From Histomonas meleagridis (taxonomy: Eukaryota; Parabasalia; Tritrichomonadida; Dientamoebidae), in NCBI GenBank assembly GCA_020186115.1, contig WSYJ01000099.1, positions 744,001 to 808,000 of the forward strand: a DNA stretch of 64,000 nucleotides, in the 5' to 3' direction. Below are positions 2,760-54,590 of this stretch, piece by piece. A program made the translations under genes and the position numbers. Each line of letters starts with the position of its first letter. The first letter of the stretch is position 1. The notes below the pieces were generated by a model that saw nothing but the letters and a program-made list of their open reading frames with translations, made no database searches and was not told the DNA's origin.

Positions 2760-4219
2760 TTAATTTTCATATTTCCGAATTCCTGTGATCCTTGCTCTTT
2801 TATCAGAGATTTCAGCAAGCATCCTAAGAATTTGAAATGCATTTTCACAATTTCCCACAGTAAGCATTGTTTTCTATAATATGAATAAACACCGAATAAT
2901 ATTTTTGAATCCTATCAAATAAAATAAATAAATATTTTTAGCGTTGATATCAATTTCATGTTTTTCGAGAAGTAATTTAACAATATCTAAGTGACCTTTT
3001 ACCGATGCCAAAATGAGAGTTGTATTAAATTATTCAAATAATTTCCGATTATTGTTTTAAGACATCATTTTATTTGTATAAATTCTAAATAAATCATAAA
3101 ATTATTTTTAGCATTAACATCAATTCCATCTTTATTTATAAGTAATTTAACTACTTCTATTTGATCTTTTTCTATTGCGCAAAGAATCGGCGTTTGAAAT
3201 CTTTTGAATAATTTCCAAATATTTTTTTAAAATTATGAATGATAAAAACATATTTCAAATTTAATAAGCAAATATTTTTTGTATTTACATCAATTCCTTC
3301 TTTTGCAAGAAGTAATTTAACAGTTTCAACATGACCATTTTTAGATGCCAAATGAAGAGCTGTCCAAAATATTTGATATAAACTCCAAATATTAAATTGA
3401 AACATGATCATAATGAAATTAACATTAAATAAAGCAAATAAACACCTTTAGCATTAATATCAATTCCTCTCTGTTCAAGAAGTAATTTAATAATATCTGC
3501 ATGACCTACTTCAGATGCTCTGATGAGTGCTGTTTCAAATAATTTAAACAAATTCCAAATATTATATTGAAATAAAAAATCATCAATATAAATATTATAT
3601 AAAACTTATAAATACATATCGCATTAATGTCAATTCCATTTTGCTCAAGAAGTAATTTAACTATTTCAGTGTGGCCATTTCTAGATGCTCTCATAAGTGC
3701 TGTGTAAAATATTGCGAATAATTTCCAAATAGATTTTTAAAATATTAAATTATTAATATAAACATTAAACAAACCAAACAAACATCTTTAGCATTAATAT
3801 CAATTCCTTCTTTTTGAAGAAGTGATTTAACTATGTTTATGCTACCGTTTTTCGAGGTAATTATAAGTGGTGTTTCAAATAATAAAAACAATTTCCAATT
3901 ATTATTTTAAGACATCAATTTGTTTGAATAAATTTTAATTAAAACATAAAAATATTTTTAGTATTAACATCAATTCTTTCTTGACCAATAAGTAATTCAA
4001 CTATTTCCGTGTAACCATTTTCATATGCCCAAATAAGTAATGAACAAAATAAGATGAAAAAATCCCAAATGCATTTTATGTATATTAAATAATGGAAGCA
4101 AACTTTAACTAAAAAATTTAAATATCTTTACTATTAATATCTGTTGCTTTGAGAAGTAATTTAATGATTTTGATATTGTTATATTCATGCGCATACATGA
4201 GTGTGGTTCTAAATAATAT
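2760..4219 (-). CDS. Ankyrin-repeat array with 80-nt spacers, no N-terminal domain
   Basis: On the minus strand nine ankyrin blocks of about 30 codons run from about 4219 to 2934 and end in a short terminal segment (2760-2870) that opens with TMLTVGN and ends at a stop. Every block is open in the Thr-Ala-Leu frame and carries the ankyrin signature (ALxxAS.NGH.EIVKLLL, GIDINAK). Spacers after the Asp codon lie at 4044-4123, 3874-3953, 3704-3783, 3534-3613, 3364-3443, 3194-3273 and 3024-3103 (each exactly 80 nt, exact 170-bp spacing) and 2871-2933 (63 nt). No DUF3447-type N-terminal domain is found upstream; a 4262-4450 open frame does not resemble one. So this is a 5'-truncated gene, a donor array, or a gene whose first exon I cannot recognise. 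Translation requires spacer removal. Confidence 0.6.
2871..4123 (-). repeat. 170-bp tandem units: ankyrin block (90 bp) plus spacer (80 bp)
   Basis: Seven consecutive units have spacers beginning every 170 bp with no indel, although the spacer sequences differ greatly; the spacer at 4044-4123 shares little with that at 3364-3443. The 3' third of most spacers carries a conserved ATTTGGAAATTATT core, then a TTATTT, then one variable codon, then ACA GCA CTT. The codon just before ACA encodes E, W, N, K, Q, Y, R or C, the residues usual before TAL in ankyrin repeats, so the downstream coding block probably starts at or just before that codon. Confidence 0.8.
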
Positions 4220-4261
4220 TTGCAAATTTCAAATTTGAAATTGAAATATCGAATTTTTATA

Positions 4262-4688
4262 TTAAACATATCCTCTATCAGATTTTAATACTGATTTATT
4301 TTTCTGTTGAAGCCAATGAAGAAACTTGTCGAATTCTTGAATCAAGTTGCCTTCCATCCCAAAAATGCCATCTCTTTTTGATAACCGTACAGCGGTTATG
4401 ACTTTATAATTCAAAAAGTGTAAAAGGAAGATTAACAAACAAAATAGCAATAATCATGACAATCAGTTGAAATAACAAAATTAGGGATGCTCTAATAGAT
4501 AACTTGTGCTAAAGCTTATTTTCATCATTGACAAAGGTATGATAGCAAAAAATGAAATTGATTGTTTTTAGAAAAATTAGGTACAGTGTATGTAGCACTG
4601 ACAATATTTAAAAACTCAATAACTTAATAAAGTTTTGCATTTCAAGTGTTTCACAAAACTTATAAATATTAAGTAAATCTATTTTTAT
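4262..4688. other. Gap between ankyrin array and STPGR gene
   Basis: A short minus-strand open frame (4262-4450, ending KSVLKSDRGYV) lies directly upstream of the ankyrin array and might be part of a lost 5' exon, but it matches nothing I recognise. The rest is AT-rich with no open frame of note. It probably includes the 3' untranslated region of the STPGR gene. Confidence 0.3.
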
Positions 4689-6377: not shown

Positions 6378-9113
6378 ATGTTTCTCTTTGTTCTTTTCCA
6401 AAGGACTCTATGTGAAGACTCAGATTATTTCCCATACGTTCCACTAAATGCAAACTCAGGGGGCTCGCTTGTCAACATGTCCTATTTAAATCAACAAAAA
6501 GCTGATCAGCGCATCATCATTAAAGATGGTCATTTTGCATATGAAAATGGCACAAGAGTACGTTTTGTTGGTGTATCATTTATTGGTGCGAATTTCTATA
6601 CATCACGTGAACATGCTGATGAAATTGCGGAAAGACTTTCTCAGCTAGGTGTTAATCTTGTAAGATTTCATAACATTGATCAACCAAGTAAATCCTCACA
6701 CTTATGGGCAGATTATAATCAACAAACCGACTTCGATCCTGATCAAGTTGCTGCATTCAGATACATGATAAATGCGTTAAAACAAAGAGGAATTTATACG
6801 AACATAAACATTAAAGTTAGCAGACAATATCCTTCTTTACAATTATACAACTACGATTACAATGTCATCAAATCCATTGAATATCTTCATGAACCATTCA
6901 TCCAATCCAACATTGACTACATCACTAAGCTCCTCCAGGTTCAAAATTATGAAAACACATCCACTCTTGCGAATGATCCCTGCATTGCATTTTTTGAACT
7001 CAACAATGAGAACGATATCTTCCAAGTCTCCTATCAAAACTTCAAGCAATGGATCGAAATCCAAGACAACGTTATCTATCTGAGTTCCATCAAAGATAAG
7101 TGGTACACATATTTGAAAGATACATATCACGATTATAACTCATTAGATCACAAAATAAATTGGGAACTTTTTGATGAGTCTTTAGATCTTGTATCAAATT
7201 ATACAGCCGAATGTAATTGGCATAACACATATAAGTGTACGAACACTGATAATGAATGGGTTATTGACATACAACAAACATCTGATTATCGATATCGACA
7301 TCAATTACTTACGCATGTTAATCCACCAGTTTTTCAGCCGAATACATATTATACCATTCAATTCACTGCGAGATCTAATCAAGAAAAATTTAATATATCA
7401 GCACAACTTGTTTCAGGTGAGTATAACATTGGTGAAATTATTCCTGATGTCACAATAACAAATGAAAATCAAGAATATAATATCGTATTCAAAACATATG
7501 ATGAAGATGAAGGTTGGGGACAATTTAACTTCTCTAAGCCACAAACTGTAAGTGTTACATTGGAAAATAAACCTGCAATAATTTATATTACAAAACCCAA
7601 AGTTTTTAAAGGAAGAAAACATGTTGAATTCTCCGATTCACAAACATTAGATACAGTATGGTTCCCTTATCCAATAGATTCAACAATTGATGAACTTAAT
7701 GCAGAATTTCGATCATTCCTTGGATATATTGAAGCTAACTATACAAAACGGATGATGAAAACAATAAGAGATTTAGGATGTCAAACATTAATTACACCAA
7801 CACAAATGAATTATGGAAATCCAATCACTATATCAAAAAGGGCAGAACTTACTGATTATTCTGACTTCCATTCTTATTGGAATCATCCAACATATACTAA
7901 TGGACAAACGTGGGATTATAATTATTTAATTACAGAAAATCGGCCAATGTCAGAAGATGAAAACTTTGGAGCTTTTAGTTTTTTGTCATATAAAATATAT
8001 GGTAAACCATATTCGTTATCGGAATATAATCATCCATTTCCAAATGATTATATAAATGAAATGGTTCCAATGTTATTTCCAATAATGTCTTATTATGATC
8101 TTGATAGCGTTTCATTATTTTTCTGGAATAATCAATATGATAATATAAGTGAGAAAGAGTTTATTCATGATCCTTTCTCAATAACTAATAGTCCTATTGT
8201 CACCACTTTAATTCCATTTGCTTCTATAGCATTTAGAGAGTTTTCCATCAAAGAAGCAACGCATAAAGTGAAAGTGACTTTTCCATCCGCTTTTATTGAT
8301 TTTTGTAATCTTAAAGATAATATAAATCATGAATGGTTTTGGAACAAAGGAATGATCAACAAGAATTGTGTTATACCACAAGAATTAACATTCATTAAAG
8401 ATGAAGGAAATAATCTTCTTGTTGATGATGACATTTGTGTTCAACAAGAAAACAAATTCCCATATGTCATTGGTGATGAAATTATTTGGGAAAAAGGAAA
8501 ATTTATCACAAATTCTTCCAAAGTGATATTTGCAACAGGAACACAACTTTCAAATGCACTTGATTTCGGTCCATTAATTGTATCAATGGATCAAAAAGAA
8601 CATTCATCACGAACTTTTGCTGCTGCATCACTTGATAATAAACCATTGACTTCTTCGAGAAAGTTCATAATTGCTGTTGTTGGGAATGAAATGAATTCTA
8701 ATCAAAAATGGAATAATGATAGAACATCAACAGGCTCAGCAAATGGTGGAAATTATGGAACTGAGCCAATTCTAGTTGAGAAAATTAAATTTACTGTTAA
8801 TATTAAAGGTGGAAATAATTACACAATAACAAAACTTTCGCCAAATGCAATGCCAATTGGTGAATGTAAATTTAATGAAGAAGAAAATGGAATTTCATTC
8901 ACAAATGATAATAATAACCCAACTTTGTGGTATCTTGTCGAAAGAAATATGACGCAATTACCATCAGAAAATGGGAATTCAAATGAAACAACTATTATAA
9001 TTGTGGTCGTTGTCGTGGTAGTTGTTGTCATTGTTGCGGTGGCTCTGATTACTTTCTTCGTTATTAAGAAAAGAAAAGAAAAACTTAACGATTCTTCAGG
9101 TCCAAATCTTTGA
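6378..9113 (+). CDS. Membrane-anchored GH5-like glycoside hydrolase
   Basis: 911 residues. A short N-terminal hydrophobic segment (MFLFVLFQ, cut probably near LCEDS) acts as signal peptide. A (beta/alpha)8 glycosidase follows, with the GH5-type start 'FVGVSFIGANF', 'RLSQLGVNLVRFHNID', the acid/base motif ELNNEN (Glu near residue 211) and a likely nucleophile in LSEYNHP (near residue 547). Between them (about residues 295-415) sits an inserted beta-rich block with Trp and Tyr that resembles a CBM4/9-type carbohydrate-binding fold. The C-terminus has a Ser/Asn-rich stalk, one Val-rich membrane helix (about 873-895) and a short basic cytoplasmic tail (KKRKEK). It is therefore a type I surface or lysosomal enzyme acting on polysaccharide or glycan. 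Substrate is unknown. Confidence 0.8.
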   Translation: MFLFVLFQRTLCEDSDYFPYVPLNANSGGSLVNMSYLNQQKADQRIIIKDGHFAYENGTRVRFVGVSFIGANFYTSREHADEIAERLSQLGVNLVRFHNIDQPSKSSHLWADYNQQTDFDPDQVAAFRYMINALKQRGIYTNINIKVSRQYPSLQLYNYDYNVIKSIEYLHEPFIQSNIDYITKLLQVQNYENTSTLANDPCIAFFELNNENDIFQVSYQNFKQWIEIQDNVIYLSSIKDKWYTYLKDTYHDYNSLDHKINWELFDESLDLVSNYTAECNWHNTYKCTNTDNEWVIDIQQTSDYRYRHQLLTHVNPPVFQPNTYYTIQFTARSNQEKFNISAQLVSGEYNIGEIIPDVTITNENQEYNIVFKTYDEDEGWGQFNFSKPQTVSVTLENKPAIIYITKPKVFKGRKHVEFSDSQTLDTVWFPYPIDSTIDELNAEFRSFLGYIEANYTKRMMKTIRDLGCQTLITPTQMNYGNPITISKRAELTDYSDFHSYWNHPTYTNGQTWDYNYLITENRPMSEDENFGAFSFLSYKIYGKPYSLSEYNHPFPNDYINEMVPMLFPIMSYYDLDSVSLFFWNNQYDNISEKEFIHDPFSITNSPIVTTLIPFASIAFREFSIKEATHKVKVTFPSAFIDFCNLKDNINHEWFWNKGMINKNCVIPQELTFIKDEGNNLLVDDDICVQQENKFPYVIGDEIIWEKGKFITNSSKVIFATGTQLSNALDFGPLIVSMDQKEHSSRTFAAASLDNKPLTSSRKFIIAVVGNEMNSNQKWNNDRTSTGSANGGNYGTEPILVEKIKFTVNIKGGNNYTITKLSPNAMPIGECKFNEEENGISFTNDNNNPTLWYLVERNMTQLPSENGNSNETTIIIVVVVVVVVVIVAVALITFFVIKKRKEKLNDSSGPNL

Positions 9114-23787: not shown

Positions 23788-25961
23788 TTGAGCCTTTTGC
23801 AGCAGTTGAAGCTTGGCGTACCTAATAAATCAGATAATTTACAAATCTTTAAAAATCTCGAAACAATTGTTTTTAACATAAGTAAGGAAAATGTAGAGTT
23901 TTCTGTGGAACAAACCATGAATTTATATTTTTCAAATTATCCTTTATCGTTCAACTATGTTATAGTCTTGTTAATTTATTCTGCTCTTAAATGTAATGTT
24001 GATAATTATAAAGCATATATAAATTATTTAAGATTAATCCAAATGAAGGAAGATGAAATTTATTGTTGCAATCCCAAAATTATTGATATTTTTGGATCAT
24101 TTTTAACAGAAAACTTAACAAATGAATATTATCTTATTAAAAAAATGCTTGAAGAAAAAATAATTGACATCAATAAAGTTAAGGAAAATCAAATATTTGA
24201 AACCACAGAACAACCTCAGAAACGGGACAATTCAAACAAATTATTAGAAATAATTCGAGATGATAAACTTGATGAACTTCAAGAAATATCATCACAAACA
24301 AATTTTGATTTTAATCAAACAATTGAACCATCACTTTATGAAAAATGTTCTTTTATTAATCACTATAATGTTACATTAATTAGTTATGCAGCATTTTTTT
24401 CATCAGTTAAATGTTTTAAATATTTACTTATGAATGGAGCAAAAGTGGATAATACAGGTAAATATGCAGTTGCAAGTGGAAATATTGAAATCATTCATTT
24501 ATGCGAACAAAATCATTCATCATTTGGAGGTGCATATGAAACAGCAATTAAATTTCATCGAAACGATATCTTTAAATATATTTATGAAAATAAATTAGAA
24601 GAAAATTCAACGGAAGATAATAGCAGAATTTCCCTCATAGACATATCTTTTAAATATAGACATTCCAAGCATCAACCACTTGAGCTATTTTGTGTGAAAT
24701 ATAGTAATTATGAAATCCTTTCTTTTTTGAAAGATTATGGAATAAAATTCGATGAAACTGTATTTAATGAATCAGCAAAAATTGGTAATTTGTTTCTCGT
24801 TGAATATCTCATTGAAGATAATAAAGTTCCTAAAGATATTTTACTTTTCTCAGTGCAATCAGGGAATATAGAACTTGTTAAATACATTCTTGAACATTAT
24901 GAAATTGATATCAATTCTAAATCTATTTATTCGTTTTATTTAAAATTAATTTTAATAAATTTATATTTCTAAATAATATTTGGAAATTATTTGAATTATT
25001 TTGGACAGCACTTATGTTTGCTTCTTATAAAGGTCATACAGAAATCGTAAAATTACTTCTTGAACAAAAAGGAATTAATATTAATGCTAAAGATATTTTT
25101 TTGTTTTATTTGATATTTATTTTAATAATTTTATATTTCAAAATAATATTTGGAAATGATTTAAATTATTTCAAACAGCACTTGGTTTTGCAGCTATAAT
25201 GTCATTTAAGAAAGGATACGATGAAATTTTAAAATTACTTCTTGAACAAGAAAATATTGATGTTGATGTTAAGGATGATTTTTCAAGAAATTATATGGAA
25301 TTTATTAATTTATTTTAAAACATTACTTATGCTTGCAACAGAAAAAAATAAAATTGATACCGTCAAATTAATTCTTAAAAACAAAAAAATTGATTTAAAT
25401 ATTAAGGAAAATATTCATTTTTTTTTATATAAGGTTTATAGTAAAAATTATTTGGAATTTATACATAACATATTGGACATCACTTATGATTGCATTATTT
25501 AATGGTTATACTGATATTGCTAAATTACTTCTTGAGGATAAAAGAACTGACATTAATACTAAAGATATGCATTCGTTTTATTTAAAATTTATTTAAGTAT
25601 ATTCTAGATTCAAAATAATATTTGGTATTTATTTACTCAATAAAAAACTCCACTTATTTTAGCAAGATCAAAAGGTCAAAATGAAATTGTTCAAATAATT
25701 CTTGAAAAAGAAGGAAACATTTCTGACCAGCAAAATGAAAACAATACAAACGGATTTGGTTTACCTGCAAATGATCAAACATCAACGAATAGCACATATA
25801 GTTTTGGTTTACCTACAAATAATCAAACATCAACTAATAGCACATATAGTTTTGGTTTACCTACAAATAATCAAACATCAACTAATAACACATATAGTTT
25901 TGGACATTCAAAAAACCGCTACGATGAGGATGTGCGAATCATGCTCGGATTTTATCATTGA
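23788..25961 (+). CDS. DUF3447/ankyrin protein with spacer-interrupted repeats and FG-type tail
   Basis: The first open block (23788-24924) encodes the DUF3447-type N-terminal domain common in trichomonads, with 'DKLDELQEISSQTNFDFNQ', 'SLISYAAFFSSVKCFKYLLMNGA' type helices and 'IIHLCEQNHSSF'. It has no in-frame ATG before about 23920; the open frame starts at TTG with a stop shortly upstream, so the first exon or start is missing or unrecognised. Six ankyrin blocks follow, separated by spacers 24925-25004 (80), 25095-25174 (80), 25277-25319 (43), 25410-25476 (67) and 25567-25646 (80). All blocks are open in the TAL frame though diverged from each other. The last block runs into 'GFGLPANDQTSTNSTYS' repeats and stops at 25959-25961, inside an inverted-repeat arm. 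It can make protein only if spacers are removed. Confidence 0.6.
25755..25898 (+). repeat. 48-bp tandem repeats coding FGLPTNNQTSTNSTYS
   Basis: Three in-frame 48-bp units start at 25755, 25803 and 25851, followed by a partial (SFGHSKN). Each encodes 16 residues with one FG followed by LP and a Ser/Thr/Asn/Gln-rich spacer. The pattern resembles FG-nucleoporin spacing. The frame is the one that continues from the last ankyrin block; the other open frame across it (starting 25702) is a shadow. Confidence 0.75.
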
Positions 25962-33855: not shown

Positions 33856-33926
33856 TCCGATATCGTTCATCGGTTAGGATATGTGGTTTTCATCCACGGG
33901 AGCGGGGTTCGATTCCCCGTATCGGA
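33856..33926 (+). tRNA. tRNA-Glu (anticodon UUC)
   Basis: A 71-nt cloverleaf. The acceptor TCCGATA (33856-33862) pairs with TATCGGA (33920-33926). The D arm contains ATCGGTTAGGAT, the anticodon loop TTTTCAT has the TTC anticodon inside the TGTGG/CCACG stem, and the T arm is GGGGTTCGATTCCCC with internal B-box GGTTCGATTCC. The sequence closely resembles eukaryotic tRNA-Glu. No intron. Base pairing continues one or two positions outside the acceptor (AT/AT), and GAATT/AATT-type ends flank it. It stands alone between the V-ATPase e gene and a small unknown gene. Confidence 0.95.
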
Positions 33927-34284
33927 ATGAATTTTTTTAAATAAAAATAAAAAGTGAAGTATTTGGATCAAAATACTGATATCTTAAGATTTTTTTCAAC
34001 CAATTCATCATTTATGCATAAATCTTCAAAAAGCTATATTAAAATTGTTAAATTACTTACACTTTATTAATCGAATATGATCACATAAATATTGTTCTTA
34101 AGTATTTTTGAATTTTATATTTTTTGCTGCTTTCATTATGCCGAATTACTTTAAGTTTCTTTTTAGAAATAATTTCTGAGTTTTTTCATATTCCCCTTGA
34201 TGGAGTGTGAATACTAAATATACCATATTTTTATGACTTACTCACATTACAGAGTGTTGATATTGTCACTAAAAATATTAAAAA
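33927..34284. other. Gap after tRNA-Glu
   Basis: A T-rich run directly after the tRNA (ATTTTTTT at about 33930) should terminate pol III transcription. The remaining 300 bp hold no open frame of note. Confidence 0.45.
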
Positions 34285-45847: not shown

Positions 45848-48202
45848 TTATTTATTACAATTTCGGATCTGTTTGCCATCAAAAACAGCAAATTTAAACT
45901 TCATTTGATATATCACTCTCCTCAATGAGATTTTTATGGGAATTCCTCTTCGAACAACAAGGATAATAACAACAACAAAGACTACAACTACAACAACAGC
46001 TACAGGAACAGCTATCCCCACTGCTGTGTCGGTGTTACCTTTGGAGTCGTCTCCTCCATTTGATTTCATTTCTTCGTTTTTGGCATTTGCTTCTTGTAAT
46101 ATCTGATTAAATTCTTGTTCTGATTGTGCATTGTTTAACTTATTAATGTACTCTTGTTGCAAATCGCCCAAATTTTCCAACTTTCCGATGTCTTGTTGTA
46201 CTGTTTCTTTTTTATTTGATTTTATTTCTTCCTTTTGTGATTGCGCTTTTGCAACAATTTCATTTATTTCTTTTAGTGATTTTGCATTTGATACTTGTGC
46301 TGTGTAATTCGATTTGTTTTCTTCATCTAAAAACTTTAATTCATCAATTTTATTCTTTGATGATGCTTTTTGTGTTTCTTCATTTTTGTTTGCTGCAGAT
46401 TCTGCACTTGAAACAATTTCATTTACTTCTGTTTGTGTGTTTGCTTTTGATATTTGATCAGCATACTTTGATTTGTTTTCTTCTTCTAAAAACTTCAATT
46501 CATTTATTTTATTATTTGCTGATTTCTTTTGTGCTTTTTCATTTTCATTTGCTGTACTTTTTGCATCATCAACAATTTTATCGATTTCTTCTTCTGATTC
46601 TGCACTTGATATTTGTTTAATTTAATTTGCTTTATTTTCTTCTTCTAAAAACTTTAATTCGTTAATTTTATTCTTTGCTGATTTCTTTTGTGTTTTTTCA
46701 TTTTCATTTGCTGTACTTTTTGCATCATCAACAATTTTATCGATTTCTTCTTCTGATTCTGCACTTGATATTTGTTTAATTTAATTTGCTTTATTTTCTT
46801 CATCTAAAAAGTTTAAATTATTAGTTATCCTTAAAGCATCATCTTTAAAGGATCCTTCATAATCAGAAAATGCCTTATTTCCAATATATTGAATTGATCC
46901 CAATTTTTTCATTGCATATTTCATATGTAAGGTGCTTCACATAATAAAATGCGTAAGCACCAATAGATGTAACATTTTCTTCAATCTTAAGATCAGTAAT
47001 ATTAAGAAAGAAATTCTTCCACGGAGCAAGTGTTTCGTTTTCGAAATCGCGCATTGGTCCATTTCCTTTAATAGTAAGAAGCCCGTCCTCCCATGTCCAC
47101 CTAAGATTTGATCCAATGCTACCAGAGTCTTTCGCTTCTAATTGATATAACAATGGCTTATCTTTAGGGGCACTAACTGTATATCTTTTATAGTGATATT
47201 CATAATCAGTAATTGATAAGCCCCATTCTAATTCACCACCTGTATATTTATAACCATTCTTATGATCTTTGGCTAAGATTCCCCTTAAGAACAAATCCTT
47301 CTTGTGAATCTTTGCTGTCGAATGCAAACCAATTTTCGCCAAGATGAACCCAATGCGTGTTTACTTGTCGTCTCTCCAACTACAGAAAAGCCTTCAACGC
47401 CTGCACGTGCAGGTGGTTGAAGAAGAGTGTTGATATAGCTGAAAAGCCTTGGCATACAGTTTTATGTAAGAAGAGTGCGGTATAGACTGAATTTCCATTT
47501 TGAGGTATCCCGGCATATTCAACATTATCATTAATCCACCACCAAAAAACAACCAGTTTTTCGTAATCGGTGTGTAGATCATTGTCAGCACGATATCCGG
47601 TAAAATTACCTGTTGCAAACATTCGATCAACTTCTTGACGAGAAATACGTTCATGTTCTTCACTAGTCATGAGAGAAGATGTATAGTCCAAGATAATTGT
47701 GTAGTAACCATGATATTGATTTATTTGATGATAAGGTTGGAGCCACTGACTTTTAAGTGTCAAACCATTATTAGATATTTTTAAATAGCGATAATATGAC
47801 AAGTCAACTTGTTTCATATATTCGAGTGAATCAGTATATGCTTGTGTGAAATATCCTTTCCAGTAATCTCCAGCTTCACCAAAATTTACATCTTCAGGGT
47901 TGGTTGTCAATTTATAATGTTCTTCAGGAGTCATAGTGAGAGTTATTTTTACACTCATCCTCCATGTCACCAAGTTTTTTAGGAGAAATTCTAGAATTTC
48001 ATCATATTGGTCATGAGTATAGTTTAGAATGGTGAGATCATGGACTTCTTCGCGAAGAGATTGACCATAAATCTTTAACAGTATAATTAAGATTTATAAC
48101 AGCATGAGCATGTGTTGGAAAAATTATAGATGCGAACATTATCAATAGAATCTTCTTTAGTTTTATCCGCTTTAATTGTTGAATCAAATAATAATCTATT
48201 CC
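45848..48202 (-). pseudogene. Transglutaminase-like / BspA / GA-like-repeat surface protein, pseudogene
   Basis: On the minus strand several frames make one protein. The N-terminus (about 48202, MVTGIDYYLI) carries a signal-like KKILLIMFASIIFPTHAHA. A frameshift near 48055 leads to a transglutaminase-like domain with 'VYTALFLHKTVCQGFSAIS' (catalytic Cys). Further shifts near 47390-47280 split 'HWVHLGENWFAFDS' (catalytic His, then Asp) from the next part. A bacterial-style BspA block follows: 'LRWTWEDGLLTIKGNGPM', 'TLAPWKN', 'IEENVTSIGAYAFYYV'. Five about 53-residue helical repeats (46080-46815) come next, two with a TAA stop, then a membrane helix (VAVPVA.. VVVVFVVVIILVV) and a basic tail. 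At least three frameshifts and two stops mark it as dead; the architecture is like gut Firmicutes surface proteins. Confidence 0.75.
46080..46815 (-). repeat. Five 159-bp repeats coding GA/FIVAR-like three-helix modules
   Basis: Units begin 'LKFLEEENK' or variants and continue '.Q IS.A.....VNEIV..A.......' with a Lys/Asn-rich linker, 53 residues each. The pattern 'L..L....K......I..A.....v..I...A' resembles GA and FIVAR modules of Gram-positive surface proteins. The two 5'-most units carry an identical in-frame TAA (plus coordinates 46781-46783 and 46622-46624), exactly 159 bp apart. Confidence 0.75.
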
Positions 48203-48238
48203 GGTGACCATTTTCAGATTCCGCAATAAACTGTTGAA

Positions 48239-48260
48239 AAAAAAAAAAAAAAAAAAAAAA
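48239..48260. repeat. Poly(A) run of about 22
   Basis: A homopolymer of about 22 A on the plus strand (T on the coding strand), just upstream of the transglutaminase/BspA pseudogene's first ATG. Its length may vary between reads or isolates. Confidence 0.85.
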
Positions 48261-48299: not shown

Positions 48300-48589
48300 A
48301 AATATATTAAATACATATCTGCTTCTATAAGTGCTGTTCTAAATGATTTAAATAATTACCAAATATTATTTTGAATTTCCAAATTATTAAAATAAATATT
48401 AAATAAAACAAATAAATATTTTTCGCATTAATATCAATTCCTTCTTGTTCAAGAAGTAATTTCACTATTTCTGTATGACCATTATAAGAAGCAAATATAA
48501 GTGCTGTCCAAAATAATTTAAATAATTTCCAAATATTATTTTGAAATATAAAATTAATAAAATAAATTTCAAATACATTATCTATTTAT
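48300..48589 (-). pseudogene. Isolated ankyrin unit with full 80-nt spacer
   Basis: Minus strand carries the 3' half of a spacer (ATTTGGAAATTATT core), one intact ankyrin block (TALIFASYNGHTEIVKLLL...GIDINAKN), a complete spacer of exactly 80 nt (48338-48417) and the first residues of the next block (TALIEAD), then unrelated AT-rich DNA. No N-terminal domain or neighbouring repeats remain. It lies directly after the stop of the AFG2-like gene. Confidence 0.7.
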
Positions 48590-50608: not shown

Positions 50609-51024
50609 TTGAAGAAGATCTTATTTAACAGTATATGTGAAAAATTTCACATAAATGTACTGGTCGTTCAGATATTTGTAAAGTATTCATTTTATCCACA
50701 ACGATATGATAAACGGTCATATTGCCATGTAGGTCAATTTCACCTCAAGGAAATTTACAAAAAACACATTTTCCATTATGTAAATTTCAACTCTAATTGA
50801 TCCTAAAAAATTCAGATGTTAATTGTAAATCAAAACGAATTCTCTCAAGATTACATTGAAATTTGAAATCAATAAATGAAACATTTATTTATGAAATAAA
50901 TTATCAGTCATTTTTGATGTATGTATATTTAATTTCTCAAAAAAAAAAATTCTTGATTTCAAAAGTTTTGAGCTTCTTTTATCGTATATTTAACCCATGT
51001 ATCCTTGTTTATTTTTTTATATTG
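50609..51024. other. Divergent intergenic region, AFG2-like / ankyrin gene
   Basis: No gene. An in-frame extension upstream of 51025 exists (to 50863) but reads low-complexity Phe/Tyr/Ile sequence unlike the family; the ATG at 51025 is preferred. TTCAAATG precedes the leftward start. Confidence 0.4.
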
Positions 51025-52618
51025 ATGGGAAATACTGTGACCAAAGCAAAAAATATACAACAAACTCATTCATCATACCAAAGTAGGTTTATACTTGAAT
51101 CGCTAGAAGGAATTATTTTTAAATTATCTGAAGATAATATTCATGATTCTGCTGAAATGACGTTGTATTTAGTATATGAGAATTTTTTGGATTTTCCTTA
51201 TTATTTTATTTGTAGATTTATTTATTCATCATTTATTTCAAAACGGAAAGATTGTACATTTTATTTTATGTTTATAGAAGAAATTAATACTAAAGAAAAA
51301 GATATAAACCCAAGCATTAATGGATTGATTAATGAATTTGTAAATTTTATTCTTTCATTAAATTCTAATGAATCGTTTTATCTTCTTGAAAAGATGATCG
51401 AAATGAATTTAATCTCTTCATCTTTAGTCAAGGATAAAAACACTTTTTATTTCGCACATTATATTGATAATGAGGATTTGTCATTTTATAAAAATAAGAA
51501 TGAAAATTATGATGAACTTTCAGCAAATGATTATGAGCTTCATAAGAAATATATTACAGAAGGACACAATCCAGATAAAATTGCAAAAATACTTCAAAAT
51601 GATGAAATAGAAAAACTTCAAGAAATATCATCGCAAACTAATTTTAATTTTAATCAATATATTAAACCATCACTTTATGAAAGATATTCATATATTAATC
51701 ATTCATTTGTTTCATTAATTGAATATGCTGCATTTTTTGGGTCTGCTAATTGTTTTAAATATTTACTTATGAATGATGCAAATGTAATGTATGCTGGTAA
51801 ATATGCAATTGCAGGTGGAAATCTTGAAATTATTCATTTATGTGAGCAAAATCATGCATCATTTGAAAATGCAAATGAAACGGCAATTGAATTCCATCGA
51901 AATAATATCTTTAAATATCTTTATAAAAATAAAATTGTTGAAAATTATAATGAATATGAAATTTTATGCTTACTTTTAACAAATGAATTCATGAATATTA
52001 AATTATTTAATATTTTACTTGAACAAGAAAGAATTAATGTCAATGCAAAAGATATTTTTTTGTTTTATTGAAAATTTGTTTTAATAAATTAGAGGAGGAA
52101 TTTAATATTTGGAAATTATTTAAAATATTTAATACATTGCTTTTTTATGCATCTGAAAAAGGTAACATAGAAATAGCTAAATTGCTTCTTGAACAAAAAT
52201 GGATTGACATTAACGCAAAAAATTTTTATTTGTTTTATTTGATATTTTTTAAATATTTTTTGTGTTTCAAAATGATATTTGGAAATTTCTTGAAATATTT
52301 GAAACAGCACTTATTTGGTCTTCTAGAAATGGTAAACTAGTTGGGGTTAAATTACTTCTTGAGCAAAAAGGTATTGATGTTAATGCAAAAGATAACATAT
52401 TTTTTAATAATTTAATATATCAAAATAATATTCAGAAATTATTTAAATTATTTAACACAGCACTTATATATTCATCCGAAAACGGTCATTTAGAAATAGT
52501 TAAACTACTTCTTGAACAAAAAGGTATTGATGTTAATGCTAAAGATATTTATTTGTTTTATTTAATATTTATATCCTTTAATTTTGTGTTTTGTTACAGA
52601 TTAGAATTAATAATATGA
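51025..52618 (+). CDS. DUF3447/ankyrin protein, most intact copy, spacer-interrupted repeats
   Basis: ATG at 51025 (MGNTVTKAKNIQQTHSSYQ) opens a 343-codon block with the full N-terminal domain ('RFILESLEGIIFKLSEDN', 'LLEKMIEMNLIS', 'NDEIEKLQEISSQTNFNFNQ', 'SLIEYAAFFGSANCFKYLLM', 'EIIHLCEQNHASF'). It runs into ankyrin blocks split by spacers at 52054-52133 (80), 52224-52303 (80) and 52394-52456 (63). The 63-nt spacer happens to be in frame, so 52262-52618 reads through. The last block ends GIDVNAKD; a shorter spacer then ends GTTACAG (52599), followed by ATTAGAATTAATAATATGA, a possible 3' terminal segment. No internal stop or frameshift lies in any coding block, so this is the best candidate for an expressed member. 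Confidence 0.65.
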
Positions 52619-52817: not shown

Positions 52818-54590
52818 CATAAATAAAGATAACTTTGATACATCTATTTCAACATTATGCAAATTTTATGATAATTCACAAACGTATTCATTCAACTTGA
52901 TCATCTACCGTTTCATTTATCCTATGTTTGTAGCAAAACTGAAAGATATAGATATAATTATTGAGTTTTTGAATTTAATTGAACGAGAGATCAATAAAAA
53001 TTAAGTTCAAATACTTGACATCTTTTCTCAATTCCTTCTGGAAAATAACACACAAGAATCTAATTATATTATTGGAAAGTTGATAGAAAAAGGTTTAATT
53101 AACTCATCAATTACTGAGAATATGAAGAGTTTATTTTTTTCACATTTTAAGGCAAATTTCGTTTTAGACAATAGATATCAATTTTCCGAATATTTCTCCG
53201 AAAACCTTGAAAAACTTAAAGCGAATAATTGGGAACTTCATAAGAAATATGTTAAAGAAGGAATAAATCAGAATGAAATTGTGAAAATAATTCGAAATGA
53301 TGAAGTAGAAAAACTTCAAGAAATATCATCACAAACAAATTTTGATTTTAACCGAACAATTGAACCATCACTTTATGAAAGATGTTCATTTGTTAATCAA
53401 AAGAATGTCTCATTAATTGATTATGCAGCATTTTTTGGATCTGTTAAATGTTTTAAATATTTACTTATGAATGGTGCAAAATTAGATAACACAGGTAAAT
53501 TTGCTGTAGCAGATGGAAATGAAGAAATCATTCATTTATGTGAACAAAATCATTCATCATTCGAAAGTACATATGAAACTGCAATTGAATTTCATCGAAA
53601 TAATATCTTTAAATATTTATATGAGAATAAAATTGAAAGGGTTAATGATTTAGAAAAATTAGGAGAAAAATGATTTTGTGTTGTAATTTTGATATTCTTT
53701 CATTTTTGATTGAAAAAGGAATGGAAATAAATGAAAATATTATCATTGCTTCGATTGTAACAGGTAATTTATATATTGTTCAATATTTTCTTGAAAGCAA
53801 TCCTATTCCTATTGATTTTTTAAAAATTTCAGGCTTTTCTAGAAATGTAGAACTTTCTAACTATTTAATTAACAATAGATATATAGATTTAAGCAAGATT
53901 GTTTGTTTATTTTATTGGATTTTTATTAAGGTAATTTTTTGTTTCATAAAAATTTTTAAATTTTTTTCAAAATATTTGTAGCTCTTACAAATGCTTCAAA
54001 AAATGGTTATACAGAAATCGTTAAATTACTTCTTGAACAAGAAGGAATTGATGTTAATGCTAAAAATATTTCTTTATTATATATGATATTTGTTTTAATA
54101 ATTTTATATTTCAAAATAATATTTGGAAATTATTTAAATTATTTCGAACAGCACTTATTTTAGCATCTTTAAATGGTCATACAGAAATAGTTAAATTACT
54201 TCTTGAACAAGAAGGAATTGATATTAATGCTAAAAATGTTTATTTATTTTATTTAAATTTTATTTTAATAATTTTGGATTTCAAAATAATTTTTGGAAAT
54301 TATTTAAATTATTTAATACAGCACTTTTTTTCGCATCTTTATGTGGTCGTACAGAAATAGTTAAATTACTTCTTGAACATGAAGGAATTGATATTAATGC
54401 TAAAGATATTTTTTTATTTTATTTAATATTTATTTTAATAATTTTATATTTTAAAATAATATTTGGAAATTATTTAAATTATTTAAAACAGTACTTATAT
54501 CTGCATCTGAAAATGGTCATACAGAAATCGTTAAATTACTTCTTGAACAAGAAGGAATTGATGCTAATGAAAAAAATATTTAATTTATTT
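52818..54590 (+). pseudogene. DUF3447/ankyrin gene with nonsense codon and frameshift, repeats intact
   Basis: The N-terminal domain is recognisable from 52818 (NINKDNFDTSISTLCKFYD) but has a TAA at 53002-53004 and an apparent frameshift at the A-run near 53668 (EKLGEK-stop against ILCCNFDILSFLIEKG). The downstream ankyrin part is undamaged: spacers 53898-53977, 54068-54147, 54238-54317 and 54408-54487 are each exactly 80 nt with exact 170-bp spacing, and every block between is open. The first of these spacers is very diverged in sequence and ends TTTGTAG. After the last block (54570) the spacer starts but no further repeat follows. Probably a pseudogene unless the stop is bypassed. Confidence 0.65.

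Follow-up and report, generated by a model that had tools for sequence, protein, structure and literature searches.

On the minus strand of a 64-kb stretch of the Histomonas meleagridis genome (hereafter the window; 29.2% GC), ankyrin repeats are interrupted one by one by spacers of equal length, which raises the question of what these spacers are and how the repeats could come to be read as one protein. An earlier note on this DNA had reported seven equal spacers of 80 nt whose sequences diverged at constant length, and had favoured one intron of measured length per repeat. Taking a spacer to start after D-x-N and to end before the following T/S-x-L codon, we found that all seven consecutive minus-strand spacers at 2871-4123 are 89 nt long, that is, the reported 80 nt plus nine coding bases, and that their pairwise identity is 53-82% (mean 64%), which bears out both observations. 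The eighth junction of this array (2871-2942) measures 72 nt.

Spacer length is quantised in steps of 20 nt

In the five ankyrin loci of the window we anchored 20 junctions, beside which further, more decayed ones may exist. Sixteen of the 20 are 89 nt long (seven in the minus-strand array and nine elsewhere) and the remaining four measure 52, 72, 72, and 76 nt; the earlier note had counted 17 junctions of one length in five loci.

The survey was extended to a 43.28-Mb assembly of H. meleagridis in 121 contigs. The genome paper, in whose main text ankyrin is unmentioned, gives 43.4 Mb in 187 contigs and 28.7% GC for the virulent strain, and 573 introns (PMC8529796). In the window and the first 28 loci fetched, gap lengths included 49, 69, 72, 89, 92, 109, 149, and 209 nt. 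We then compiled 151 distinct spacers, none with an internal exon that we could detect, from the window and the fetched loci, which were chosen non-randomly by ankyrin match or element pattern and contain related copies, so that the counts are not independent. Lengths of 89, 72, and 69 nt were found in 63, 25, and 20 of these spacers, respectively, and others measured 49, 109, 129, 149, 189, 209, and 249 nt. Since 128 of the 151 lengths fit 9+3m+20k (m=0-2), a series that chance would hit in 3/20, spacer length is quantised with a step of 20 nt. The 23 spacers off this ladder include missed exons, 18-nt elements, and one 9-nt deletion; the assembly was built from Nanopore reads and refined with Illumina reads, according to the text of the genome paper (PMC8529796), and some exceptions that lie in homopolymers may be assembly errors. 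A length locked at 80 nt therefore describes the seven spacers of the minus-strand array but not the spacers beyond the window, where lengths vary in 20-nt steps, and the genome-wide peak that had been predicted is present in the form of a ladder.

Spacers consist of 17-nt elements with single triplets between them

When aligned, the spacers split into A/T-rich elements of 17 nt with single triplets between them. A typical spacer of the first kind (type A) has the order Ala Lys Asp, element, codon, element, codon, element, Gly, element, codon, Thr Ala Leu, and its elements have a GC content of 3-10%. In the 72-nt class the first element is missing and its codon is retained beside Asp. Type-B spacers consist of 20-bp copies in tandem and contain between 2 and 12 elements; the first element is usually ATTCATTTGAATAATTT, and most later ones are (A/G)TATGTTTTAATAATTT.

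The minus-strand array can be modelled as one whole ankyrin gene at 2760-4357, from an inferred ATG at 4357 to a TAA that ends at 2760, with 34 elements of 17 nt that all differ in sequence. The predicted first exon (4268-4357, 90 nt, MEGNLIQEF...SDRGY) is followed at 4208-4267 by three elements (4251-4267, 4231-4247, and 4211-4227) with the codons GAT, GAA, and AGA. Eight ankyrin exon cores then occupy 2943-4207 (4133-4207, 3963-4043, 3793-3873, 3623-3703, 3453-3533, 3283-3363, 3113-3193, and 2943-3023). The seven 89-nt spacers contain four elements each: spacer 1 at 4044-4132 (4107-4123, 4087-4103, 4067-4083, 4047-4063; loop SKDKNGC), spacer 2 at 3874-3962 (3937-3953, 3917-3933, 3897-3913, 3877-3893; loop TKNKDGE), spacer 3 at 3704-3792 (3767-3783, 3747-3763, 3727-3743, 3707-3723; loop AKDNNGY), spacer 4 at 3534-3622 (3597-3613, 3577-3593, 3557-3573, 3537-3553; loop AICNFGE), spacer 5 at 3364-3452 (3427-3443, 3407-3423, 3387-3403, 3367-3383; loop AKGNHGW), spacer 6 at 3194-3282 (3257-3273, 3237-3253, 3217-3233, 3197-3213; loop TKNEIGQ), and spacer 7 at 3024-3112 (3087-3103, 3067-3083, 3047-3063, 3027-3043; loop AKNRDGN). 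Spacer 8, of 72 nt at 2871-2942, has three elements (2917-2933, 2894-2910, 2874-2890) and the loop AKNDRGK, with a putative micro-exon of two codons (D R).

Without the elements, the 1598 nt of the modelled gene become 1020 nt, a length divisible by three, with no internal stop and a terminal TAA, whereas the three unspliced frames contain 32, 44, and 40 stops. Sliding all elements by -2 to +4 bases still yields no stop, so the register is not fixed by the stop count of this gene but by the triplets, as described below. Position 1 of the element is A or G in 34/34 cases, T occupies positions 2-4 in 29, 30, and 31, and A occupies position 14 in 32; 22 elements end in TTT, and the starts are GT in 11, AT in 18, and AA in 5.

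The plus strand of the window carries three further arrays. Junctions of the second (24916-25646) lie at 24916-25004, 25086-25174, 25268-25319, 25401-25476, and 25558-25646, with the loops SKSKYGW, AKDDYGQ, VKDYGK, none read at 25401-25476, and TKDKLGK; the last exon of this gene (25740-25930) encodes tandem NQTSTNSTYSFGLPT repeats, which we take to recall FG-nucleoporin sequence. The third (52045-52456) has junctions at 52045-52133, 52215-52303, and 52385-52456 with the loops AKDKRGN, AKNDCGE, and AKDNNRN, and the fourth (54059-54487) has junctions at 54059-54147, 54229-54317, and 54399-54487 with the loops AKNDYGR, AKNKWGN, and AKDNYGK. A minus-strand fragment at 48338-48426 contains one junction, with the loop AKNNGGR.

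Other features of the window include a transglutaminase-like gene (46400-48240, minus strand, read by eye) that is apparently split over several open reading frames; the break inspected near 47380 is not A/T-rich, and the gene may be a pseudogene or contain assembly errors. A 911-aa frame at 6378-9113 (plus strand) ends in weak similarity, below the Pfam cut-off, to Orf78 (ac78), and a tRNA gene at 33856-33927 (plus strand) is the sole Rfam match above the cut-off in the window.

A length of 17 nt may not be absolute, since variants of 18 nt exist, at L027 2553-3066 (minus strand) in four tandem repeats and also at L026 4787 and L037 3186. In the divergent ankyrin genes L003, L004, and L008, whose exons are longer, eight junctions have elements at the same loop; of the 17 elements there, 15 are 17 nt and two are 18 nt long, the loop has seven residues at all eight junctions, and Gly is in place at six, numbers that show consistency rather than proof, as seven of the junctions were parsed with a bias toward 17 nt and seven residues and one by eye. 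Their element sequences are unlike those of the arrays, which argues that 17 nt is more than the length of one amplified copy. In L004 and L008, single elements stand between normal exons.

Evidence that the triplets are codons

Single-codon positions contain no stop among 507 triplets from 128 distinct ladder-fitting spacers, while 49.3 would be expected from independent column composition, and 348 of the 507 are one substitution away from a stop. The 44 triplets of this set that come from loci added once the model existed are likewise stop-free. Genome-wide counts, which cover the stops TAA and TGA, gave a single case among 1313 exact sites before ACAGCACTT and two among 1516 exact sites between type-B elements. 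Such exact patterns miss divergent sites: none of the last elements in the seven 89-nt spacers of the minus-strand array matches the ACAGCACTT pattern.

Absence of stops is not special in itself. In 54 distinct 89-nt type-A spacers, 43 of 87 triplet offsets are stop-free. In a separate scan, registers -2, -3, and +3 relative to the model contain 1/416, 1/416, and 0/311 stops; register -1 contains 196/416. The zero at register 0 is informative because this register is the most variable of those scanned, with 33 different triplets and 3.63 bits. An unsupervised scan of the 87 offsets in the 54 type-A spacers led to the same positions: offsets 87 and 47 came first in variability and offset 27 fifth, each with no stops, and offsets 46 and 86, ranked between, overlap these frames and contain 25 and 32 stops. 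GG was frequent at offset 67 only (0.83), where the model places the ankyrin glycine.

Reading the triplets also restores the ankyrin loop. In type A, 75 of the 88 loops have Gly next to last, whereas 10 of 235 other triplets encode it, and 79 of the 88 loops have seven residues. The codons of the minus-strand array, read together, give an ankyrin loop with its glycine in 7/7 spacers; over the whole window, 18 of the 20 junctions have this Gly, one has Arg instead, and at 25401-25476 no loop was read. Uninterrupted repeats in the same genome have the seven-residue loop in 19 of 29 regular-expression hits, most of the other 10 looking non-coding by eye, and two loops of the Tritrichomonas foetus protein P0016 also have seven residues (by eye). 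Type-A repeats of 33 or 34 residues with D-x-x-G-x-T-[AP]-L were obtained only when the triplets were read. Type-B loops vary, with Gly in place in 10/40 and with six residues in 19/40 and seven in 9/40; the ankyrin argument therefore rests on type A, and the case for type B on the stops and the ladder.

Substitution patterns point the same way. Between near-identical repeats (36 of 115 pairs), triplets 1, 2, and 4 differ at 0.41, 0.30, and 0.42 per site, elements at 0.06, and exon third positions at 0.12; single codons thus vary about six times more than elements. Exon differences in the minus-strand array are lowest at the second codon position (0.34/0.20/0.39 for positions 1/2/3), and in three divergence classes second positions differ by 0.06/0.15/0.21 and third positions by 0.12/0.31/0.41, although the exons were selected by a stop-free ankyrin pattern, which favours a low second-position difference. 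Codon-usage tests of the skip length did not single out 17 and are uninformative because A/T-rich spacers score as weakly coding at any length. Judged by these sequence patterns, the triplets between the elements are codons.

Distribution of the elements

The elements belong to a large ankyrin family. A genome search with the relative P0001 gave 117 matches listed from 101 scored of 6906 candidates. An amino-terminal frame in the window (50863-52071, plus strand), part of which is DUF3447-like below the Pfam cut-off, breaks off where the first 17-nt element of the following array is reached. Fourteen ENA proteins are related to this frame with 41-53% identity, and 13 of them terminate no more than about 35 residues past the D-x-N-x-K motif, where the first element would start; eight of the 13 end two residues past K or Q. 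P0001 is 58-60% identical to its six best-scoring genomic copies and therefore comes from another organism. No Histomonas copy was among the 19 matches listed in a protein database search with the amino-terminal frame, nor among the best 120 of 5138 matches to an X-masked array query, where identity was at most 57%.

The elements are not general among genes, as kinase matches are mostly unbroken: 129 of 133 listed matches run through at least 250 of 263 positions (by eye; 132 of 635 candidates scored, intact genes scoring best). Six of the unbroken matches read through stops, and the fetched loci show canonical introns there. One kinase domain (C78:376002-376739) lies within an exceptionally long uninterrupted frame of 22,955 aa. 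A search with a position weight matrix for single elements more than 200 nt from an ankyrin core, in about 0.3 Mb, gave three hits, of which two border array L036, while the reversed matrix gave three and permuted matrices one to four; this search thus yields no evidence for elements in other genes. Pattern and protein scans of a viral collection gave no match. In literature on introns or ankyrin in Histomonas, parabasalids, and Dientamoeba, no such arrangement appears in titles or the openings of abstracts, a survey that mostly leaves subscription papers outside.

Splicing signals and comparison with known introns

Having located canonical introns in kinase genes, we compared them with the elements. 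In nine kinase loci (L042-L050), chosen for stops or breaks in their kinase profile matches, all nine introns have the form GTATGTTT ... [AT]CTAACACA[TC]AG and a length of 57-301 nt. Their 3′ motif ends in CATAG in eight of the nine loci, whereas CACAG is the form in Trichomonas vaginalis. Eight of the genes (L042-L046, L048-L050) have one canonical intron at the same place, directly after ILYALL[ASV]. The 5′ GTATGTTT of these introns resembles the start of type-B elements, (A/G)TATGTTTT, but they differ from the elements in length and 3′ motif: the branch motif CTAAC (as ACTAAC or TCTAAC fused to the 3′ end) is present in 9/9 kinase introns and in 0/162 ankyrin spacers. The 5′ consensus GTATGT occurs in 4/162 ankyrin spacers, GT begins 11 of the 34 window-gene elements, and AG ends one of them. 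A T. vaginalis-type search for GTATGT with CTAACACACAG at gaps of 3-33 returned no match. Ordinary trichomonad-type splicing was rejected as a candidate, since the elements fail its defining features (GTATGT, AG, and CTAAC).

A U6 RNA match with an ACAGAG box (43.7 bits, just below the 44-bit cut-off) and one PROCT match for Prp8 indicate that H. meleagridis has a spliceosome. For U6atac the genome gave no match above the cut-off (best 19 bits), although a divergent copy could escape such a search, and none of the 34 window-gene elements ends in AC as AT-AC introns do. Two genes for the RNA ligase RtcB are present (C118:285258-286553 and C40:2803337-2804629), with no link to the elements shown.

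Known short introns offer partial parallels. Introns of Stentor coeruleus are likewise ultra-short and of near-fixed length (15-16 nt, with the branch A at position 10 in the 15-nt class), but they are mostly GU...AG, unlike the elements with their 11/34 GT starts and 1/34 AG ends, and serial one-codon exons are not described for Stentor in the available text of that report (PMC9505925). The type B introns of T. vaginalis are also parabasalid, short (23-25 nt), and T-rich, and their +3 A/T and +4 C/T are comparable to the RTTT of the elements; they differ in keeping GT/AG and a CTAA branch site within the 3′ motif, and T. vaginalis has 63 introns in all as against thousands of element sites here (PMC12316389). 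Nonconventional introns of euglenids resemble the elements in having no conserved GT-AG borders and a removal mechanism that is not known (PMC6221363, PMC4770533), but they form a stable secondary structure (PMC6221363), whereas 60 ankyrin spacers folded no better than their shuffles (mean z -0.30, below -2 in 10%); euglenid-type introns were rejected for this lack of stable pairing.

Possible modes of removal

The evidence assembled above makes it probable, in our estimate, that the spacers are strings of non-canonical intervening sequences with a fixed length of 17 nt, which surround single-codon micro-exons and are precisely removed. The elements would lie in phase 0, between codons, inside the beta-hairpin loop of the ankyrin repeat. 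Each would be cut precisely from the transcript, leaving a lone codon (rarely two) as a 3-nt micro-exon and restoring a normal repeat of 33 or 34 residues. Removal at the RNA level is what we infer from sequence. Of the earlier proposal of one intron per repeat, the idea of removal by measured length agrees with this evidence, while the unit is the 17-nt element. As the elements fit neither known splicing nor euglenid-type introns nor bypassing, removal by other or strongly relaxed machinery remains. The likeliest candidate is a modified spliceosome with relaxed signals, which would recognise a purine at +1, the T-run that follows, A at position 14, and the terminal TTT, in view of the similarity to the 15-nt introns of Stentor in the purine, in an A that lies four bases before the 3′ end, and in the narrow range of length. 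Removal element by element also faces objections: AG ends are absent from 33 of 34 elements and CTAAC is absent altogether, so that no known splicing machinery is predicted to cut there, and exons of three bases flanked by 17-base introns would pose an extraordinary steric problem.

Excision of the whole 71-80 nt spacer as one intron, with the triplets as intron sequence, would require a single cut-and-join event, which is easier than four, and would preserve the frame at any number of 20-nt units; the A/T-richness of the spacers and the failure of type-B loops to keep the ankyrin length also speak for it. It leaves unexplained why variable triplets contain no stop among 507, why Gly recurs in 75 of 88, and why type-A loops have seven residues. 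Each repeat would lose the loop residues x-x-G and become three residues shorter, the single elements amid normal exons in L004 and L008 do not fit, and GTATGT followed by CTAAC occurs in 0/162 spacers. We consider this reading improbable.

Translational bypassing exists, in T4 gene 60 and in the byps of Magnusiomyces mitochondria. Elements that are A/T-rich, fixed in length, and devoid of splice signals would suit ribosomes that hop over each of them on an unspliced mRNA. The codons from which they would take off vary, however (GAT, AAT, GGA, GAA, TGG, and others), and the final triplet of the element is TTT in 22/34, which means that the peptidyl-tRNA cannot re-pair as a rule; moreover, up to 12 hops would be needed within one loop. 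Bypassing, which had been put forward earlier as an alternative, thus finds no support here and seems to us very unlikely.

We give similarly little credence to the view that nothing is removed, such that frames stop at the first element, the arrays are untranslated, decaying or satellite-like DNA, and the ladder reflects minisatellite slippage. The tandem 20-bp copies of type B are what slippage would leave, and amino-terminal frames do end at the first spacer, both in the window copy and in 13 of the 14 ENA relatives. Against this, the triplets are stop-free with a conserved Gly in type A, and the downstream exons are open and least different at the second codon position, a pattern that their selection favours; the modelled window gene, which is open from ATG to TAA without its elements, needs no amino-terminal frame. 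Least probable of all is excision from the DNA of an expressed genome copy in the manner of ciliate internal eliminated sequences, which the short, A/T-rich, precise, and length-restricted elements would allow, but we know of no second, rearranged genome in parabasalids, and the 1313 and 1516 exact interrupted sites are present in the assembly.

Loop diversity and significance

If 17-nt intervening sequences are removed one by one, each extra 20-bp unit would lengthen the loop by exactly one residue and leave the frame intact, and element-framed codons would let the loops diversify in sequence and length. Type-B loops range from 5 to 16 residues, and example loops contain much Tyr, Gly, Glu, Arg, and Trp. 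Across 57 distinct type-A units, variability is highest at exon residues 5, 8, 9, and 11 and at three of the four loop positions that triplets encode; the remaining position holds the conserved Gly. Such positions in ankyrin repeats point toward the bound target, and protein design randomises them. In DARPins, the randomised residues of D-x-x-G-x-T and A-x-x-G coincide with the natural hypervariable ones found here, but DARPins are engineered and have no intervening sequences. The sequences of the family thus resemble a repertoire diversified for recognition.

Combinations of triplets 1, 2, and 4 differ in 51 of 54 type-A spacers, and linkage between triplets did not exceed that in shuffles (of 2000 shuffles, 762, 1557, and 181 were at least as high as the observed value). 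This fits triplets that change independently, although the linkage test does not prove exchange. Hypothetically, the 17-bp blocks that flank each codon could serve as homology for such exchange and would allow single codons to be exchanged, mutated, or added independently. In its fullest form, the proposal is that the elements are intervening sequences of a new class, for whose recognition length and border bases count rather than GT-AG and a branch site, and that they frame single hypervariable codons in a very large family, which would thereby hold a natural, evolvable library of ankyrin binding loops, with a logic comparable to that of DARPin libraries and of the leucine-rich receptors of lampreys; we regard this as tentative and rather less probable than not.

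If transcripts confirm their removal, the elements would be among the shortest introns known, with serial single-codon exons and lacking the signals by which the spliceosome of the same organism recognises its kinase introns. Such a finding would bear on the minimal needs of a spliceosome or reveal another RNA-cutting system, and it would add a way of building genes that gives hypervariable residues exons of their own. It would also make readable many genes of this poultry parasite that ordinary gene finders break up.
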